In this document: piece after piece, positions 9,188 through 18,762 of the stretch | Numbering within the stretch: position 1 is the first letter of the stretch | How the letters are laid out: each line of letters begins with the position of its first letter | Assembly (NCBI GenBank): GCA_024123955.1 | Contig: CP099652.1 | Location: 868,001 to 932,000, forward strand | Length of the DNA stretch: 64,000 nucleotides | Reading direction: 5' to 3' | Source: Oxalobacteraceae bacterium OTU3CINTB1 | Lineage (GTDB): Bacteria > Pseudomonadota > Gammaproteobacteria > Burkholderiales > Burkholderiaceae_D | Program-made: the position numbers and the translations under genes | The notes under the pieces: model-generated | Told to the model about the DNA's origin: nothing | The model's database searches: none | What the model saw: only the letters and a program-made list of their open reading frames with translations

Positions 9188-12181
9188 GTGCATAAAAATT
9201 TGAAAACGTTTTCAGAGTCGCCGCTGAGCCAGCGCCGGTTGATCTGCCTGGCAGTGGCCGGCGCGTGCGCCACGTTCGTGCCCGCGTTCGCCCAGACCGC
9301 CGGCGTGCCGGGCGACGGCGCCGACGGCCCGAAAGTGGTCGTCACCGGCATTCGCGCCAGCATGCAGTCGACCATGAACATGAAGCGCAACGCCGACGGC
9401 ATCGTCGACGGCATCGTCGCCGACGACATCGGTAAATTCCCCGACACCAACCTGGCCGAATCGCTGCAGCGCATCTCCGGCGTGTCGATCGACCGCAGCA
9501 ACGGCGAGGGCCAGAAGGTCACCGTGCGCGGCCTCGGTCCCGACTTCAACCTGGTGCTGCTCAACGGCCGCCAGATGCCGACCACCGACCTGAGCGACCT
9601 GTCGGGCCGTTCGTTCGACTTCTCCAACCTGGCCTCGGAAGCGATCTCGCAGCTGCAGGTGTATAAAACCGGCCGCGCCGACAGCCCGTCCGGCGGCATC
9701 GGCGCCACCATCAACGTGATGACCGCGCGTCCGCTGGACAATCCCGGCATGCGTGCCAGCATCGGCGCCAAGGCCGTCAAGGACGACTCCAATAAAGAAC
9801 TGCCCGGCATGCTCAAGGGCGACAGCGTCACGCCCGAAGTGTCTGGCATCTACAGCAACACCAGCGAAGACGGCCGTTTCGGCATCGCCGTGAGCGCCAG
9901 CCACCAGCGCCGCGACTCCGGCTACAACCGCGCGGGCCTGGCCAATGGCTACCAAGGTCCGTACCTCGGTTCGGCCACCCTGCCGGAAGGCGCAACCCTG
10001 CCGCAGCCGGGCCAGCCCGGCTCGGAAAAGATCACCAACCGTCCCGGCCAGAACGATTTGTATCTGATCCCGCAGAACTTCGGCTACGGCGTCAACGCCA
10101 TCTCGCGTCAGCGCACCAACGGCCAGCTGGTGCTGCAATTCCGTCCGGTCAAGGAATTGACCACGACCCTGGACCTGACGTATTCGGAACAGAAGATCCA
10201 GACCAAGCGCAACGAGCTGAGCGTGTGGTTCGGCCAGACGCCGACCTCGACCAGCACCTGGCCGGGCGGCAAGGTGCAGACCCCGCTGACCTATATGGAA
10301 ACGTATAAGACGCCGCAGGACATCTCGGTGGTGGGCGGCGACTACGCGACCAAGACCAAGAACAAGTCGATCGGCTTCAACACCGTATGGAAGGCCACCA
10401 ACGACCTGCGCCTGGAGTTCGACGTCCACCATTCGAACGCCGAATCCGGCGCCGACAGCCCATGGGGCAGCGAGAACAACCTGTCGAACGCCAGCTACAG
10501 CCGCGGCAATACGATGGTCGACTTCACCAAGGAGTTGCCGGTGGTGAGCATGCCGGCGGCCAACCTGGCCGCCGCGCCGATCCAGGCCACCGGTTCGTGG
10601 TTCCACAACAGCTGGCAGAAGGCCACCATCAACCAGGCCCAGACCAAGGGTAACCTGAAGCTGTTCGAAGCGTCCGAGCTGAACTTCGGCGTCGGCTACA
10701 CCGACTCGACCAACCGGTCGACCTATTCGAACGTGCAGAACAACAGCTGGGGCGGCGCCTCCAAGGCGTCCGATTATCCGGGCAGCCTGTTCCAGGCCAA
10801 TTCGCTCGGCTCGTTCTTCAAGGAATTCGGCGGCCACAACGCGCCAGAGCTGTTCGGTTCGCTCTACACCTTCGACTTCGGCAAGGTGCGCGCCGCCACG
10901 GCCGCGGCCACGGGCCTGTCGACCTACCTGCCGAATTTCGACAGCGCCGACACCGACCGCAAGCTGACGGAAAAAACCACCTCCGGTTATGTATCGTTCG
11001 GCACGGACTGGGAGGCCGCCATCCCGTTCCATACGTCGGTCGGCGTACGCATGGAGCGCACCAAGGTCACCTCCGTGGCGCAAGTACTGGTGGGCACCGG
11101 CGTGGTGTGGGAATCGCAGAATGAATTGCCGCTCAAGTTCGCCGGCGCGTCGTACAGCACCCAGGACGCCAGCTACAACAACGTGTTGCCGGCCCTGAAC
11201 TTCGACGCCGATCTGCGTCCCGACATGAAACTGCGCGCCAGCGTCGGCACCACCATCGGCCGGCCGCGCTACGACCAGATGCAGGGCGGCTTGACGCTCG
11301 GCACCATCGGCAACGTGTTTACCGGCGGCACCGCCTCGGTCGGCAACCCGGCCCTCAAACCGGTCAAGTCGAAGAACCTGGACTTGTCGTGGGAATGGTA
11401 TTACGACCAGCAGAGCGTGCTGTCGGTCGCCGGCTTCCACAAGAAGATGGACAACTACGCCGGCCAGACGGCAACCTCGACGCCGCTCTACAACCTGCAC
11501 ACGCCGGTCGGCGGCGCGTATTACACCGCGGCGCGCAACTCCGGTTGCTCGGCGGCCGACACCAACTGCCTGCGCAACTACATCCTGACCAACTTCCGCG
11601 GCCAACCTGGCGTGGAATACCTCGGCGTCAAGTCGGACGGCAACCTCGACGGCAAGATCACCGGCCAGCCGGGCGATCCGCTGATGCCTTTCCTGCTGAC
11701 TTCGTATGCGAACCAGAAGTCGGCCACCGTCAAGGGCGCCGAGATCAACGTGCAGCACATGTTCGGCCGCACCGGCTTCGGCGTCCAGGCCAACTACACG
11801 TACGTGACGTCGCCGACCAAGTACGACGACGCCAATGTCCAGGATCAGTTCGCGATCCTGGGGCTGAGCAACTCGGCCAATCTGGTGGGTATCTATGAAG
11901 ACCAGAAATGGTCGGTGCGCGTGGCCTACAACTGGCGCGACAGCTTCCTGGCCGCGACCGTCGATGCGGGCGGCGGCCGCCCGGCGCCGGTCTATACCGA
12001 CAAGTACGGTCAGACCGACATCAGTGTTGGGTACAATGTCACCGACAAGCTGAGCCTGCAGGCCGAGGTCATCAACCTGACCAACGCCACCCAGCGCCAG
12101 TACGGCCGCACCGAGCGTTCGACCCTGAACGTGACGCAAGCCGGTCCGCGTTACATGCTGGGCGCGCGCTACAAGTTCTGA
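9188..12181 (+). CDS. TonB-dependent outer-membrane receptor (TIGR01782-like)
   Basis: This 997-residue receptor has a signal peptide (cleavage likely after VPAFA, about residue 35), a VVVTGIRASM segment at about 49-60, a plug domain with DDIGKFPDTNLAESLQRISGV and the RGLGPDFN/LNGRQMP landmarks, and a long beta-barrel ending in a C-terminal Phe (ARYKF). The plug signature is that of the large TonB-Xanth-Caul group, which imports oligosaccharides and other complex nutrients. Translation starts at a GTG behind AAGGAG. A 14-bp perfect palindrome overlaps codons 5-9. It is divergent from a ROK repressor and followed by a JmjC-type cupin gene, so a sugar-responsive uptake unit is likely. The substrate is not known. 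Confidence 0.92.
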   Translation: MHKNLKTFSESPLSQRRLICLAVAGACATFVPAFAQTAGVPGDGADGPKVVVTGIRASMQSTMNMKRNADGIVDGIVADDIGKFPDTNLAESLQRISGVSIDRSNGEGQKVTVRGLGPDFNLVLLNGRQMPTTDLSDLSGRSFDFSNLASEAISQLQVYKTGRADSPSGGIGATINVMTARPLDNPGMRASIGAKAVKDDSNKELPGMLKGDSVTPEVSGIYSNTSEDGRFGIAVSASHQRRDSGYNRAGLANGYQGPYLGSATLPEGATLPQPGQPGSEKITNRPGQNDLYLIPQNFGYGVNAISRQRTNGQLVLQFRPVKELTTTLDLTYSEQKIQTKRNELSVWFGQTPTSTSTWPGGKVQTPLTYMETYKTPQDISVVGGDYATKTKNKSIGFNTVWKATNDLRLEFDVHHSNAESGADSPWGSENNLSNASYSRGNTMVDFTKELPVVSMPAANLAAAPIQATGSWFHNSWQKATINQAQTKGNLKLFEASELNFGVGYTDSTNRSTYSNVQNNSWGGASKASDYPGSLFQANSLGSFFKEFGGHNAPELFGSLYTFDFGKVRAATAAATGLSTYLPNFDSADTDRKLTEKTTSGYVSFGTDWEAAIPFHTSVGVRMERTKVTSVAQVLVGTGVVWESQNELPLKFAGASYSTQDASYNNVLPALNFDADLRPDMKLRASVGTTIGRPRYDQMQGGLTLGTIGNVFTGGTASVGNPALKPVKSKNLDLSWEWYYDQQSVLSVAGFHKKMDNYAGQTATSTPLYNLHTPVGGAYYTAARNSGCSAADTNCLRNYILTNFRGQPGVEYLGVKSDGNLDGKITGQPGDPLMPFLLTSYANQKSATVKGAEINVQHMFGRTGFGVQANYTYVTSPTKYDDANVQDQFAILGLSNSANLVGIYEDQKWSVRVAYNWRDSFLAATVDAGGGRPAPVYTDKYGQTDISVGYNVTDKLSLQAEVINLTNATQRQYGRTERSTLNVTQAGPRYMLGARYKF
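9201..9214. promoter_or_regulatory. LacI/GalR-type operator-like palindrome inside the receptor start
   Basis: TGAAAACGTTTTCA is a perfect 14-bp palindrome with the central CG typical of LacI/GalR-family operators. It begins 13 bases after the first base of the GTG start codon, so a bound repressor would act as a roadblock or block initiation from a nearby promoter. No LacI-family gene is in the window. Confidence 0.5.
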
Positions 12182-12211
12182 TCTTGAACGGTAGCGTGTA
12201 GCCGGGCCACG

Positions 12212-12237
12212 GGCCGTCGCGATGCGACGGCCTTTTT
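12212..12237 (+). terminator. intrinsic terminator after the TonB receptor
   Basis: GGCCGTCGC (12212-12220) pairs perfectly with GCGACGGCC (12224-12232) across a 3-nt loop, followed by TTTTT. An ATG lies in the loop (12222) in frame with the next gene, but this hairpin makes it an unlikely start. Confidence 0.85.
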
Positions 12238-12251
12238 CATTGGGGAAGTCG

Positions 12252-13247
12252 ATGCAACAGATAGTGGAAGTGGAGGGCGGCGCGCCGCTGTCCGACGAAG
12301 TATTGACCTCGCCGGTGCCGTTGGTGCTGCGCGGGCTGGTCGCCGACTGGCCGCTGGTGCGCGCCGCGCGCGCCGGGGCGGGGCAGGCCGACGCCTACCT
12401 GCGCCGCTTTTACCGCGACGCCACCGTGCTGGCCAGCCACAGCCCGCCGGGCACGGGTGGCCGCATCTTCTATAACGACGACCTGAGCGGCTTTAATTTC
12501 ACGTCGCAGATGGTGCGCTTCGACCAGGTGCTCGACGCGCTCATCGCGCACCTGGACGCGGCCGATCCGCCGACCTTGTACGTCGGCTCGACCACGGTCG
12601 ACACCTGCCTGCCGGGCCTGCGTGCCGAAAACGATGTCGACCTGGGCGCGCGCGATCCGCTGGCCAGCCTCTGGATCGGCAACCGCACGCGCATTCCGGC
12701 GCATTACGACGTGCCGGACAACCTGGCCTGCGTGGCCGCCGGACGCCGCCGCTTCACCTTGTTCCCGCCCGAGCAGCTGAAGAACCTGTACGTCGGGCCG
12801 CTCGACTTCACGCCGGCCGGGCAATCGGTCAGCCTGGTTGATTTCGCGCGGCCGGACTTCGACCGCTTTCCGCTGTTCGCCGAGGCGCTGCGGCACGCGC
12901 AATCGGCCGAACTGGAGGCGGGCGACGCGCTGTTCATCCCCAGCATGTGGTGGCACCACGTCGAGGGGCTCGAATCGTTCAACATCCTGATCAACTACTG
13001 GTGGCGCCAGTCGCCGGACTGGATGGACACGCCGGCCAGCACCTTGTCGCTGGCCTTGATGACCTTGCGCGACCTGCCGCCGGCCCAGCGCGCGGCGTGG
13101 AAGGAGATCTTCCGCCATTACGTGTTCGACAGCGACGGCGGCGAGGCGGCGCACATCCCGCCGGCCGCGCGCCACTCGCTGGCGCCGCTCGACGACGCCG
13201 CCGCGCGCATGCTGCGGGCGCAGATCCTCAGGCGCTTGAACCGCTAG
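12252..13247 (+). CDS. cupin-like / JmjC-type Fe(II) oxygenase-like protein
   Basis: The 331-residue protein has the double-stranded beta-helix landmarks of the Cupin_8/JmjC family: HYD at 151-153 (the HxD iron-binding pair) and FIPSMWWHH at 228-236, giving the distal histidine, followed by INYWW. Family members are 2-oxoglutarate and Fe(II)-dependent hydroxylases; the target is unknown. The ATG at 12252 was chosen because the earlier in-frame ATG at 12222 lies in the loop of the receptor terminator. Similar proteins are often found beside TonB-dependent receptors in carbohydrate loci of Xanthomonas and Caulobacter relatives, which fits this position. Confidence 0.8.
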   Translation: MQQIVEVEGGAPLSDEVLTSPVPLVLRGLVADWPLVRAARAGAGQADAYLRRFYRDATVLASHSPPGTGGRIFYNDDLSGFNFTSQMVRFDQVLDALIAHLDAADPPTLYVGSTTVDTCLPGLRAENDVDLGARDPLASLWIGNRTRIPAHYDVPDNLACVAAGRRRFTLFPPEQLKNLYVGPLDFTPAGQSVSLVDFARPDFDRFPLFAEALRHAQSAELEAGDALFIPSMWWHHVEGLESFNILINYWWRQSPDWMDTPASTLSLALMTLRDLPPAQRAAWKEIFRHYVFDSDGGEAAHIPPAARHSLAPLDDAAARMLRAQILRRLNR

Positions 13248-13289
13248 CCGCTGCGCCATCGCCGCCGCGCCGGCATCGCGGCTCTTCTT

Positions 13290-15794
13290 TTAGATAAAGG
13301 GAGTCGCCGTCGGCGCAAGCCCCATGAATACGACTGGAATAGTGGGCCCAGCCACGGGTCCGTCCATCCACGTATCGATCTCAGTGCCGTTATTGGTGCC
13401 GACCTCGTGGAACCGGCCGCCAACCGAGCCGGTAAATACGACGTCGTATCCGGAATTGCCCGAACCTGTGTGGTGGGACGTGATGTGGACGTACATGTCC
13501 CCGTTTTCGGAGGTGGTGCAGTCGAAAGTATCTTGTCCCCTTTCGTCGTACCAAATTTGATGGGCGTTGTAAATTCCGCCGATATAAGAATTGATTGCAA
13601 TGTTGCCGTTAGGGGCGTAATAGTCGTTTATGGTGAAATCCCCCTTTGCCGGATCGGCCCACTCATGACTATAGCTGCCGTCGCCTCGTAATACGTCTGT
13701 CTTGACGGTGCCATCAGTGCGTTGAATGTTTGTGCTTTGATAACCGGTGAGGTCCGATTCGATGTCGATCAAAGTACCGTCCAAATCGACCTCGTGACTT
13801 GTGTATTTGCCGTCGACCGTGGTGGAAAAGTTGATCACGGAGCCATCGTTGTCATCGACGACCGTGCCGCTGTCGCTGCCGTCCAAAGCCGTCCAAATGG
13901 TTGTCGTCACCTTATTGGCGACGTCAAAATGATACCTTCCTGTTTTCGGATCAAAATTGTCGACCAGCGTGCTATCTCCCGCAGGATCGATGTGAGCTGC
14001 GTGGGTCGTGCCGTCCGCAAAAGTCTCTTCCTTATCTTGAGAGCCATCTTCGTAGACAAGGTCGCTTTTAAAATGGCCCGCTCCGTCGTCGACGTTCTTC
14101 GTCACGGTGCCACTCGAGTCTTTAGAGAGTAAATAACTGGAACCGTCCGCCCGATGATCATACTGATCAAAAGTTCCATCGGCCAAGGTATCGGCGTACC
14201 CATAACTGCCGTCCGCGTTTTCATAAGAACGATGATTGGCGCCATCACTATCGTTCTCTACAATCGATTTGTCACCCGCGGACGAGATGGACTTGTAATA
14301 ATTACTTCCATCCGCATGATTTACGCTGTTGACATAGTAACCATCGGGACGTGAATTGGTGTAGGCAGTGGAGCCATCGGCATAGCGATGGGATTCGTTG
14401 CGCGACCCATCAGAAGTTTCCGAGATGAATGATTCTGACCCATCGGCGTAGACGTATGATTCTGTATATGAACCGTCGGATCGATGTGAATAGTCATGTG
14501 AGGAACCATTCGCGTAGTATTGATTGTCCCCATAAGATCCATCGGCATATTTGTAACTGGAATCCCGTTCGCCAGTGACGAGGTTATTACTGTTGACGGT
14601 AAAAGTTCCGTCGGGATTATGCGACTCGCTGTGATCGCCATTCGCTCCCCTGTAACCACTGCCGTAGGCACCGTCCGCACGTTTGAAGCTCCAGGAGGAT
14701 GTGCCAGCGGCATCGGCAGAAAACTCGCTGTAATTTCCCTCCGCATCCGTGACATCGCCTCCGTGCGAGCCGTCGGCTTTCTGCCAACTGTGGCTAACGC
14801 TGTCGAGTGAGTCGGCTTCGTCATATTCGCGGGTTTCCGTTGCCTCGCCCTCGGCGAACACGATAGGATGGCTTTCGGTCAGGGTGGTCCCGCTTTCAGT
14901 CCCCGACAACACATATTCATAATGGGCGACAGGATCGTAGAATTTGTAACTTTGATCTGCTGTGAGCTGAAGCAGGTTGGCGGCTTTGATCTTCAACCCA
15001 TCTACCCGCAGGGCTTGCATATCTATCTGGACCGTGTCGGTCGGGGCTACCTGTAGGATGTACTTCAGATTGTTTAGGATATACCAGGTGGGATAGGATA
15101 TTTTCTGTGGGCCGAGCTGGGTTTTGCTGTTGTAGAAATATTCGTTTGCTTCGGCTGTGATGCTCGCCTCGGTCGAGGAAATGGAATAATCAGCGTTGAA
15201 GGCGAGTTCACTATTAACCGAAGCGCCACCCGCGGTAACAAAGTAATCGGCGTATCCTCCAGCCGCAGCTCGATAGTCGACGGTCGAAGGCTGGGATACG
15301 TTGCTGTTGACTTGGCTCACAATGGAATTCCATCCGGCGATGTTGGCCATCGCTTCATCCTGGGCGTAGCGTGTCTGCAAAGTCAGCAGAATCGCGGTGT
15401 AGTCATGCGTGCCAGCGACTGCCGCCAGATTGGTCGCCGCACGTACGAAGTTATCCAACGCGTCCTGCGACGTCTTGGCGGCCAAAGCGTGCCGGTCCTC
15501 GTGTCCCAGCACGAAGACCAGATTGTCCGCATGGCGCAACGCGCCCGTCGCGGCATCAATAGGCATCTCTATATAACCACTTCTGTATTGGCCACCGACG
15601 CCCGCGTCGGAAATCGGTTTGAATCCTCTTAAAACGCCCAACTGTAGATCTTGTTCGATGTTGAATGCCAGCTCAGGGGAGCTCGCGATGGCGTTGTACA
15701 TGGACTGGTATGCCGCGCTACCCGTTCCGCTCGATAAATAATTCGAAAAATCCGACAGGGCCGCCTGAGTGTTCGAACCGATGACATTTGGCAT
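13290..15794 (-). CDS. HExxH metallopeptidase-like protein with 11-residue repeat array
   Basis: This 834-residue protein has no signal peptide. Residues 1-230 look like a zincin domain: HEDRH at 98-102 fits HExxH, then HDYT at 130-133 and QDEAMANIAGWN at 145-156, whose acidic residues could give the third zinc ligand. From about 335 to 715 a glycine recurs every 11 residues, usually in (A)DGS: Gly342, 353, 364 and so on without a break to 606, then again 651-706 with slips. This predicts a turn every 11 residues, as in a long antiparallel beta-sheet or solenoid. The C-terminal 95 residues are non-repetitive. The base composition is visibly more AT-rich than its neighbours. It lies 22 bp after a gene for a secreted protein on the same strand, behind an AAAGG ribosome binding site. 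I do not recognise the whole protein; a contact-dependent or secreted effector is an inference. Confidence 0.75.
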   Translation of the reverse strand: MPNVIGSNTQAALSDFSNYLSSGTGSAAYQSMYNAIASSPELAFNIEQDLQLGVLRGFKPISDAGVGGQYRSGYIEMPIDAATGALRHADNLVFVLGHEDRHALAAKTSQDALDNFVRAATNLAAVAGTHDYTAILLTLQTRYAQDEAMANIAGWNSIVSQVNSNVSQPSTVDYRAAAGGYADYFVTAGGASVNSELAFNADYSISSTEASITAEANEYFYNSKTQLGPQKISYPTWYILNNLKYILQVAPTDTVQIDMQALRVDGLKIKAANLLQLTADQSYKFYDPVAHYEYVLSGTESGTTLTESHPIVFAEGEATETREYDEADSLDSVSHSWQKADGSHGGDVTDAEGNYSEFSADAAGTSSWSFKRADGAYGSGYRGANGDHSESHNPDGTFTVNSNNLVTGERDSSYKYADGSYGDNQYYANGSSHDYSHRSDGSYTESYVYADGSESFISETSDGSRNESHRYADGSTAYTNSRPDGYYVNSVNHADGSNYYKSISSAGDKSIVENDSDGANHRSYENADGSYGYADTLADGTFDQYDHRADGSSYLLSKDSSGTVTKNVDDGAGHFKSDLVYEDGSQDKEETFADGTTHAAHIDPAGDSTLVDNFDPKTGRYHFDVANKVTTTIWTALDGSDSGTVVDDNDGSVINFSTTVDGKYTSHEVDLDGTLIDIESDLTGYQSTNIQRTDGTVKTDVLRGDGSYSHEWADPAKGDFTINDYYAPNGNIAINSYIGGIYNAHQIWYDERGQDTFDCTTSENGDMYVHITSHHTGSGNSGYDVVFTGSVGGRFHEVGTNNGTEIDTWMDGPVAGPTIPVVFMGLAPTATPFI

Positions 15795-15816
15795 GTTTAA
15801 CCTTTATTATGGATAG

Positions 15817-16494
15817 TTATTTACTTCCGAACGCCGTCATCGATATCAAACACTGATCGATGTCGCCGTAGACGATTTGTATTTTTTGATTTTTCTTCTC
15901 GTAGAGAAGCGTATGCGAGCCCGGGCCGTGCGCATCTTGGGATATAAGCCATCCCATCTTGACTAGTGCCGGAGAGATTTTGAGGTGGGATAAACAAAAT
16001 CCGTAGGAAGATGCGACCAGTGATTTTGGTGAAGTATCTGGCGGAGCCCCCCATCCCATGGTGATTCCATATCTTTCCGTGCTGATGTCCCAGTAATACA
16101 CATCAAAATACCAGTCGACATGTGCACGAACGCCATATACCGCGCCGGGTTCCTTCTTGTTGATTAATGTGCGTTTGTCCACTTCTTTAAGCGTGAGCTG
16201 AAAGGCTGACTCCACATCGCTTTTGTGGATATACCCTGCATTTTTGGAGAAGAGACGCAAAAACCTGGACGTTAATTCCTCATTATCGAATGGCGCGGGG
16301 CCATCGGGTGTGGAGGGCGAAGCTTTTTGCTCGGCGGCCGAGGGTTGGCGATTACTTTGATTCGGCGTGGAGTCGGTAATTGTTGGTGTGGCCGATGCAT
16401 TGGCGACCGTATAGAAGGTCAACAGAGGGAACACGAGGCAACGCAGTAAGCTGCGCGGATGCTCGGCAGGTTTGAGTATAAACTGGTGTCGCAT
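15817..16494 (-). CDS. secreted protein of unknown function, partner of the repeat metallopeptidase
   Basis: The 225-residue protein starts at the ATG at 16494, preceded by AAAAGGAAA; an upstream in-frame extension to 16587 lacks a ribosome binding site. The N-terminus (RCLVFPLLTFYTVANASA) is a signal peptide with cleavage near residue 36, then a low-complexity Ser/Pro/Gln linker and a compact domain rich in aromatic residues (DVYYWDISTERYGITMGWG) with two cysteines that could pair. No lipobox is present, so a soluble periplasmic protein is likely. It is the upstream gene of a two-gene unit with the HExxH repeat protein. By arrangement it could be an immunity protein or chaperone; the sequence alone does not show this. 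Not recognised as a known family. Confidence 0.65.
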   Translation of the reverse strand: MRHQFILKPAEHPRSLLRCLVFPLLTFYTVANASATPTITDSTPNQSNRQPSAAEQKASPSTPDGPAPFDNEELTSRFLRLFSKNAGYIHKSDVESAFQLTLKEVDKRTLINKKEPGAVYGVRAHVDWYFDVYYWDISTERYGITMGWGAPPDTSPKSLVASSYGFCLSHLKISPALVKMGWLISQDAHGPGSHTLLYEKKNQKIQIVYGDIDQCLISMTAFGSK

Positions 16495-16658
16495 AGAAAT
16501 ATTTCCTTTTGAAAACATTTGAGTCGAGTCTATCGCAAGTGTGCTTCGATGAACCGTCATTACTAAAATTATTTGGAAAAAGCACATCGGGTCAACGCAC
16601 GATGGATACGAAAAAGACGAGATGCGTGAATGAACCCAGGCGTATTGGGCGCTATAAG

Positions 16659-16679
16659 CTTTCCTAACGTATAGGAAAG
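16659..16679. other. short perfect inverted repeat
   Basis: CTTTCCTA (16659-16666) and TAGGAAAG (16672-16679) flank a 5-nt loop in the divergent gap between the secreted-partner gene and the DUF817 gene. It could be an operator or a leader hairpin for either gene. Confidence 0.4.
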
Positions 16680-16809
16680 GTTAGTACCCGCTAACTGTTG
16701 TAAAAAGTGCGATCTGGCGCGAGTCAATCATGCCGTTGCCGCTCCGCCAACTCTGGACAGAATCTTCCGACGCCGGTAGGCTGTTGTCATTTGCCCAACC
16801 GGATATATC

Positions 16810-17664: not shown

Positions 17665-18459
17665 TTAGGATGTGCGGCCCGCACGCCGGGCGGCTCTTCC
17701 CGTCAGCAGCAAGCCGGCCAGCAGCATGGCGTAGGTGGTCGGCTCCGGCACCACGGCAGCCGTCACCGTGATGTCCGTGTAGGCGAGGAAGTTGACGCTC
17801 ACTGCCATGGCGGTGGCGCCCGGGTTGGCGAAGGCCAGGGTGAAGAATTCGCTGCTGCTGGCGGCGCCGGTGTCCTCGCCCCGGATCAGCGCGCTCTCGC
17901 GCGACAGATAGCTGAAGGTGTGCATCTCGCTGTCGGTGATGTCGATCGATGCCCAACTGAAGACGCCATACCCCTCGCCGGCGTCCAGCGAGCGGGTGGC
18001 ATCGGTGAGCACGTTGCCCGACACGGTCAGCAATGTATGCGGGGCCAGGGTCAGCCATATCCACTGCTGGCTGTCGGCGCTGACCATGTTGTCCAGCCCG
18101 AGGGCGGGGCCGGTGGTGACTTGCGCGGCGACATCGCCCACGATGCCGGTGGTGGTGGCGCCTGCCGTGGCCGAGCTGTGCGCCATCTGCGCGTTGCCGG
18201 CGGTGTAAGGCGGCGGAGTCACGGTGGTTGGATAGAAGCCGCCGCCGGTATTGCTGGTGTCGGTGTAGACCATGAGCCGGGTGTCGAAGGAATCGATGAT
18301 ATAGCCGGCGTTGGCGGCGTCCTGCGGCGTGAGGTCGATGACGCCGAGCGTGACGTTGCCGATGCTGGTGGTACCGCTCGCGCTGGCCAGCGCGGGGCCG
18401 GCGGCCAGGCTGGCACAGGCGGCCAGCACGGGCAATATCGTGCGCAACAGTTTGTTCAT
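17665..18459 (-). CDS. PEP-CTERM sorting-domain exported protein
   Basis: This 264-residue protein has an N-terminal signal peptide (cleavage near ALA-SA, about residue 26) and a C-terminal VPEPTTYAMLLAGLLL segment followed by an Arg-rich tail: the PEP-CTERM signal recognised by the exosortase/archaeosortase-type EpsH system. The mature part is rich in Thr/Ser/Ala and beta-strand-like, and has no recognised catalytic motif. Such proteins are usually exported to the surface or matrix in exopolysaccharide-producing bacteria. The exosortase gene is not in this window. Convergent with the DUF817 gene and divergent from the HicB-like ORF. Confidence 0.88.
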   Translation of the reverse strand: MNKLLRTILPVLAACASLAAGPALASASGTTSIGNVTLGVIDLTPQDAANAGYIIDSFDTRLMVYTDTSNTGGGFYPTTVTPPPYTAGNAQMAHSSATAGATTTGIVGDVAAQVTTGPALGLDNMVSADSQQWIWLTLAPHTLLTVSGNVLTDATRSLDAGEGYGVFSWASIDITDSEMHTFSYLSRESALIRGEDTGAASSSEFFTLAFANPGATAMAVSVNFLAYTDITVTAAVVPEPTTYAMLLAGLLLTGRAARRAGRTS

Positions 18460-18540: not shown

Positions 18541-18762
18541 ATGCTACCGACGCCTGAAGCGAGTCGATTGATCCCGCTCAGCATTCGGTCGGACTCCAAT
18601 GGCGGCAGCGTCTCCGTACCGCCTTTGCCGGGTTGCTTGTCACATGGAGAGACCGAGGCAGAAGCGATCGCAAACATTAAGACTGCGATCGGAGAATACT
18701 CATCCGTTTGGGAAGAGCAGTTCGATGACGCCGATGTGCAAGAAGTCATAGTCACGGCGTAA
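18541..18762 (+). CDS. HicB-like antitoxin-type small protein without a partner
   Basis: A 73-residue ORF reads GGSVSVPPLPGCLSHGETEAEAIANIKTAIGEY, matching the conserved VPxLPGCxSxGxTxEEAxxNxxxAI core of HicB-type antitoxins (a degenerate RNase H-like fold). HicB proteins are normally encoded next to the small RNA-cleaving toxin HicA. No HicA-like ORF lies on either side, and the DNA-binding tail of longer HicB proteins is absent, so this may be an orphan or remnant. The ATG at 18541 is chosen as the first in-frame ATG beyond the PEP-CTERM leader; its ribosome binding site is weak (GTGGGAG upstream). Confidence 0.55.
   Translation: MLPTPEASRLIPLSIRSDSNGGSVSVPPLPGCLSHGETEAEAIANIKTAIGEYSSVWEEQFDDADVQEVIVTA

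Follow-up and report, generated by a model that had tools for sequence, protein, structure and literature searches.

The closest described systems are the effector and immunity pairs (X-Tfe/X-Tfi) of the Xanthomonadales-type type IV secretion system (X-T4SS), whose effectors carry the domain XVIPCD. Listed among them is XAC0096, a 'putative HExxH metallopeptidase' with XAC0097 as its partner and its XVIPCD at 506-646 (PMC6759196; HExxH is also given in a figure legend of PMC6536674). The former source provides, in Smlt3024/Smlt3025 and FrpC/FrpD, a precedent for an effector domain that occurs both with XVIPCD and with RTX (repeats-in-toxin) sequences and a type I secretion system (T1SS), together with an exported partner, and its authors hypothesised that FrpC/FrpD is a T1SS effector-immunity pair (PMC6759196). 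Here we analyse a two-gene unit, genes A and B, in a stretch of 64,000 nucleotides of Oxalobacteraceae bacterium OTU3CINTB1 (contig CP099652.1, positions 868,001 to 932,000; hereafter the window). We put at about 0.78 the probability that A is an antibacterial effector and B its immunity protein, whatever the export route, A having a predicted zinc-peptidase domain related to that of X-T4SS effectors in front of a repeat array. The features of the unit are the following (aa, amino acids):

13290..15794, minus strand: gene A, putative effector of 834 aa, with an N-terminal zincin-like domain, an 11-residue DG array and a tail
14895..15794, minus strand: residues 1-300 of A, predicted zinc-peptidase toxin domain common to X-T4SS effectors, from profiles and an AlphaFold2 model
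13635..14777, minus strand: 11-residue DG repeat array of A, about residues 340-720
13290..13634, minus strand: C-terminal tail of A, residues 721-834, alike in one long relative (P0002)
15817..16494, minus strand: gene B, exported partner of 225 aa, presumed immunity protein
16390..16494, minus strand: signal peptide of B, residues 1-35, recognised by eye
16501..16510, minus strand: ribosome-binding site of B (aaaaggaaat, AAGGA-type), preceding the start at 16494, recognised by eye

The N-terminal domain of A is what connects this unit with the X-T4SS effectors. A profile of the domain (A1) found 67 loci in the genome_contigs collection, 59 of them in Xanthomonadales, as judged by record title, and the others in Herbaspirillum, Duganella, Undibacterium (three loci), a Burkholderiales metagenome-assembled genome, Gallionella and Hydromonas. 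PF20410 (X-Tfes_XVIPCD) was detected at the C-terminus of 7 of the 10 proteins scanned from these loci, and a profile built from those seven domains matched 50 of 76 toxin open reading frames (ORFs), the seven seeds included. A profile made of 47 Xanthomonadales toxin domains only, in turn, retrieved A with an expectation value (E) of 5e-41. The presence of XVIPCD on the relatives and this last match indicate that the N-terminal domain of A is the domain that a group of X-T4SS effectors carries as its toxin, so that the link to Xanthomonadales peptidases, which a first-pass annotation of the sequence had tentatively put forward, is well founded.

The AlphaFold2 model of residues 1-310, which covers this domain, has a mean predicted local distance difference test (pLDDT) of 91.0 and a predicted template modelling score (pTM) of 0.90, and the motifs concerned, all at the residues given by the first-pass annotation, are:

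15489..15503, minus strand: HEDRH, residues 98-102, on predicted helix 89-124
15396..15407, minus strand: HDYT, residues 130-133, with conserved D131-Y132-T133
15327..15359, minus strand: DEAMANIAGWN, residues 146-156, with E147 on predicted helix 133-165

In the model the fold is zincin-like and HExxH does not lie off an active-site helix: it is placed on a long helix, the helix that follows carries the conserved Glu147, and Wss1 is the top row in a fold comparison of the domain. Conservation was followed in an alignment (A3) of 57 rows chosen by hand from 70 domain stretches (55 rows from the loci, the window and P0002), from which those with an interrupted toxin frame were omitted, as were some near-copies. 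H98, E99, H102 and E147 are kept in 57 of 57 rows, D131 and T133 in 55 each and Y132 in 53. Since the loci were chosen with one pattern ending in GHE, this choice accounts in part for G97, H98 and E99 being invariant; the pattern does not include H102 and E147. The domain is predicted to be a gluzincin-type zinc metallopeptidase in which His98, His102 and Glu147 bind zinc, Glu147 as presumed third ligand, and Glu99 acts as the base.

The second line of evidence comes from the partner. Far from being consistently absent beside relatives of the repeat protein, a homologue of B adjoins the toxin in 61 of the 67 loci, a figure that leans on the Undibacterium rows of the profile used (A2, nine Oxalobacteraceae partner rows, to which eight of the nine Oxalobacteraceae toxin loci contributed). 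The gap between toxin and partner is between -28 and +20 bp in 46 of these 61, and among 6376 ORFs A2 had no match more than 2.5 kb from a toxin; in Oxalobacteraceae the partner is directly upstream in nine of nine toxin loci (8 genomes). As to the six loci without an adjacent A2 partner, the one in L068 is present inside an over-long toxin ORF, those in L077 and L093 were found by a wider profile (A4; L077 also by the split profiles mentioned below), L087 is at a contig edge, and no adjacent partner was seen in L078 and L107.

The two partner groups within A2 do not find each other in single-sequence searches, and for this reason the profile was split, after the fact, into groups. A profile of three long-effector partners found window B at E 2e-10, and one of four such partners, B included, gave 13 matches at E <= 0.01 in the loci, 10 of them outside Oxalobacteraceae, all ten directly beside a toxin and weak except that of Gallionella. 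A profile of 35 Xanthomonadales partners reached window B at E 2.4e-4 and did not find the partners of Duganella sp. BJB476 and Herbaspirillum at E <= 10. B is thus a genuine, though remote, homologue of the Xanthomonadales partners. Pairwise distances of toxins and partners are correlated (Mantel r 0.78 for 50 non-redundant pairs, with 0 of 9999 permutations as high), which is compatible with co-inheritance or with contact and cannot separate them.

Partners also occur in tandem (loci L053 and L080) and apart from the toxin. A search of 324 genomes of the family with A2 rendered partners in 12, and the toxin is present as well in seven of these. In the remaining genomes (G176, G240, G269, G298 and G332) no toxin was found by the window domain genome-wide or by A1 beside the partner, A1 having been applied beside the partner only, so that a distant toxin elsewhere could be missed. 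The match in G240 is weak (E 7e-7), and in G298 the partner remains between the same kinds of genes as flank the pair in L034 and L036. Retention of the partner without the toxin, in 5 of 12 genomes, is the pattern of immunity genes. An array of toxins is found in Luteimonas panaciterrae, where four toxin-domain ORFs stand in a row (L101, 9878-17483) with partner matches before the second and the third.

B itself lies 22 bp upstream of A on the same strand, and both ORFs, this gap, the lack of a signal peptide in A and its presence in B (both by eye) are as first described. By eye, B starts with what looks like a Sec signal peptide of the signal peptidase I type, which ends in ANASA and is followed by TPT; a longer reading of the ORF would give 256 aa from a start at 16587. 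No Pfam or NCBIfam match was obtained for B, nor did a search of the protein database render any relative besides the window's own protein. The structure model of B has a pLDDT of 77.6, and FrpD or Smlt3025 structures were absent among the best 50 rows of its structural comparison.

Identities summed over lags of 11, 22, 33 and 44 residues amount to 284 in the array of A. When the residues were shuffled 5000 times the sum was 118.7 +/- 10.0 and never as high as 284, and neighbouring lags are at background. The 11-residue period is thus far above chance, and the first-pass annotation was slightly too strong only in calling it strict: steps between DG/NG pairs are mostly of 11 residues, and there are also steps of 10, 12, 13, 20 and 22-24 as well as longer interruptions. 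Pfam rendered nothing above cut-off for gene A (at E <= 1 there was one weak PKD-domain row below it), NCBIfam had no match at E <= 1, and RTX nonapeptide repeats (PF00353) were not detected in A at E <= 1. Residues 600-834, tested as a shared delivery module, had no match in the other genomes among the 324 of the family.

The 6.87-Mb genome, a single contig, has one match to gene A. A protein-database search with residues 1-320, in which the best 7995 candidates by shared words were scored, rendered one close relative, P0002, which is 50% identical to A in an alignment of 757 columns that takes in the array and the tail; the rarity of A in that database is not to be trusted, because scoring was limited to those candidates. 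The N-terminal 247 residues matched 2 of 74 genomes of the genus and, at E <= 0.01, 26 of the 324 of the family, seven of them convincingly (the own genome and six at E <= 1.2e-11). The remaining 19 (E 3.8e-4 to 8e-3) were dropped as short partial matches, four of their ORFs having been inspected (porin-like or frame-shadow by eye) and the rest judged by lengths and match ranges. At the order level, none of 399 genomes searched proved to be an additional convincing carrier; two that belong to a different family (G616 and G725; L112 and L111) showed weak partial matches to the toxin profile around the HExxH stretch only (E about 2e-5). No match was found in a plasmid search, nor in a scan of viral_contigs with A, which detects close relatives only. 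In a tree of the domain the window groups with two RTX rows and the Gallionella row, a join that may be false because the branches are long. A subset of the effectors, in Xanthomonadales loci such as L054, L061, L070 and L080, has two matches to the initial 60-90 positions of the domain profile.

The family shared with XVIPCD effectors, the adjacent partner, the tandem and toxin-less partners and the predicted zincin fold lead us to consider A and B an effector and its immunity protein. An effector with a periplasmic immunity protein was also the leading idea of the first-pass annotation, and toxin family, partner linkage and toxin-less partners make it the best-supported reading. A would be exported in one step, most likely by a T1SS, with the DG array as stalk or passenger; its peptidase domain would reach the envelope of neighbouring cells and cleave a periplasmic or cell-wall substrate there. 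B would be exported by Sec into the producer's own periplasm, where it could bind the domain of A and block it.

The route by which A leaves the cell is less clear than its probable role. Neither XVIPCD (PF20410) nor VirB4 (PF03135) was matched in any of the 8 Oxalobacteraceae carrier genomes, and A itself has no XVIPCD match, the counts in a control genome of Stenotrophomonas maltophilia being 14 and 2, respectively. Xanthomonadales-type export is therefore unlikely in these carriers, as far as these models reach. In two Oxalobacteraceae relatives, on the other hand, the pair is inside a T1SS operon. In Herbaspirillum huttiense, whose effector is an RTX protein of 2893 aa, genes matching HlyB and HlyD above the cut-off come after the pair, together with a TolC-like gene that stays below the cut-off. 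In Duganella sp. BJB476, matches to HlyB and HlyD, again above the cut-off, stand before the partner and an effector of 1795 aa with a 12-residue array. This last array (L004) was at first taken for the same 11-residue array, an identification that was rejected, as its period is 12 and the two arrays match unconvincingly (E 0.010). The effector of G220 is an RTX version of 3624 aa, PF00353 repeats being found in it as in that of Herbaspirillum, and in the Undibacterium loci the protein is short, at 415-445 aa, and stands alone.

In the window, no gene for an exporter was observed next to the A-B pair. The genome has two HlyD genes over cut-off away from the pair, in loci that contain a PrtD-type ATP-binding cassette gene and an HlyB/LssB-like one below cut-off. 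The second T1SS locus of this genome (L124, 5601-14000) adjoins an ORF that has LTTDQVAAL-like repeats and is at least 1558 aa long. Since A is a large repeat protein without a signal peptide, and since its T1SS-linked kin share the layout, a T1SS is favoured as the most likely exporter, with about even odds.

It could also be the case that the same effector-immunity pair depends on a type VI secretion system (T6SS), A leaving on a spike or Hcp protein, an alternative contained within the probability given above for the pair as such. Three TssC/VipB matches in the genome are in its favour, but the neighbours scanned (a cupin-like protein, a DUF817 protein and a PEP-CTERM protein) include no T6SS protein, 5 of the 8 carriers have no TssC match, and an 11-residue array of about 380 residues is, to our knowledge, not a feature of T6SS effectors; we regard this route as possible and rather unlikely. 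Equally tentative is the broader proposal that the zincin toxin domain has been transferred, together with its immunity family, from one delivery chassis to another. These would be XVIPCD and T4SS in Xanthomonadales, arrays of RTX or 12-residue type accompanied by a T1SS of their own in Herbaspirillum and Duganella, and a stand-alone form in Undibacterium, the 11-residue DG array described here being perhaps a new, RTX-unlike stalk for the export and presentation of an antibacterial peptidase.

A different reading of the same genes is suggested by serralysin/AprA with Inh/AprI, in which a zinc protease leaves by a T1SS and has a periplasmic partner. A would then be a secreted metalloprotease, nutritional or host-acting and not antibacterial, and B an inhibitor protecting only the producer, and the T1SS-linked relatives do share this layout (HExxH repeat protein, exported partner and HlyB-HlyD). 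However, the same domain and partner families are found on XVIPCD proteins, partners are duplicated and are kept where no toxin was found, and neither A nor B has a Pfam match above cut-off, in which they differ from the serralysin system, whose domain order we also take to differ from that of A. This explanation is, in our opinion, improbable. The least probable is that A is a non-toxic, adhesin-like surface protein anchored through its N-terminal domain by a partner in the outer membrane or periplasm, an arrangement originally suggested for FrpC/FrpD. In its favour, the RTX protein to whose N-terminal domain FrpD binds is secreted by a T1SS (PMC5233953), but the presumed active-site residues are kept, the XVIPCD relatives look like injected effectors, and partners without toxin exist.

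With regard to the genomic setting, the effector-immunity pair lies in a segment that is not shared with the closest relative, G058:

13248..16751, no strand assigned: segment unmatched in G058, holding both genes, 3504 bp here versus 471 bp in G058

The flanks of the segment are 94.3% and 93.5% identical to those of G058, the match stopping at the cupin stop codon and resuming 471 bp later. The GC content of 13290-16494 is 52.1%, compared with 62.1% for the window, and the lowest-GC 3.2-kb stretch of the window starts at 13501 (in 500-base steps). Either the two genes were acquired together here, beside the cupin gene, or they were lost together from G058. At 9188-13247, on the plus strand, a gene for a TonB-dependent receptor is followed by a Cupin_8 gene, at whose stop codon the segment begins. 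On the other side there are, at 17665-18459 on the minus strand, a protein with a PEP-CTERM sorting motif, on account of which the strain may have an exosortase system, and, at 18544-18762 on the plus strand, a HicB-like antitoxin fragment (PF15919, E 3.1e-6).

A further setting was observed in G220, where the toxin-partner unit lies between two ORFs of 322 aa that begin and end alike and resemble transposases by eye (L037, 2199-3167 and 18192-19160). The apparent exporter gene downstream is a remnant of 107 aa (by eye; no NCBIfam match at 1e-10), and a second copy of the partner, with one internal stop, is on another contig. The flanking ORFs, the remnant and the second copy suggest that the unit of G220 may move with insertion elements.

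Compared with the known systems, A and B are like X-Tfe/X-Tfi pairs in that the N-terminal domain of A is homologous to domains of XVIPCD proteins and an exported partner is encoded just upstream, and unlike them in that the genome has no XVIPCD or VirB4 match and that A has an 11-residue array instead; in addition, the signal of B looks to be of the signal peptidase I type, unlike the partners of many relatives, which have a lipobox (both by eye). In the Xanthomonas phaseoli relative (L078, 651 aa) the toxin domain ends at 507, which fits the position of XVIPCD in XAC0096, so that the latter is probably a member of this family, as judged by its description and not by comparison of its sequence. 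The NCBIfam model of Smlt3024, NF050128, matches 4 of the 6 toxins scanned, in every case solely within the C-terminal XVIPCD region or immediately ahead of it, and does not match A, and for this reason the toxin domain of Smlt3024 appears to be different from that of A. The Tox-MPTase1-5 domains are zincin toxins with HExxH, as is predicted for A, and a distant relationship to Wss1 has been described for them (PMC3482391), but the toxin domain of A is N-terminal and without a Pfam match above cut-off.

In the literature consulted on X-T4SS effectors, XVIPCD and antibacterial T1SS/RTX proteins we found no description of this pair on a T1SS or repeat-array chassis. That T1SS repeat proteins may be antibacterial effectors with dedicated immunity is a hypothesis raised for FrpC/FrpD (PMC6759196), and A-B makes this idea directly testable, since its catalytic mechanism can be predicted, its partner can be tested and strains for comparison exist in nature. 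It also provides candidate models for a toxin family and an immunity family, the window pair itself having no match above cut-off in Pfam or NCBIfam. A and B would represent, after Smlt3024/FrpC, the second toxin family in which one effector-partner pair is found on both T4SS and T1SS chassis, in this case in environmental bacteria.

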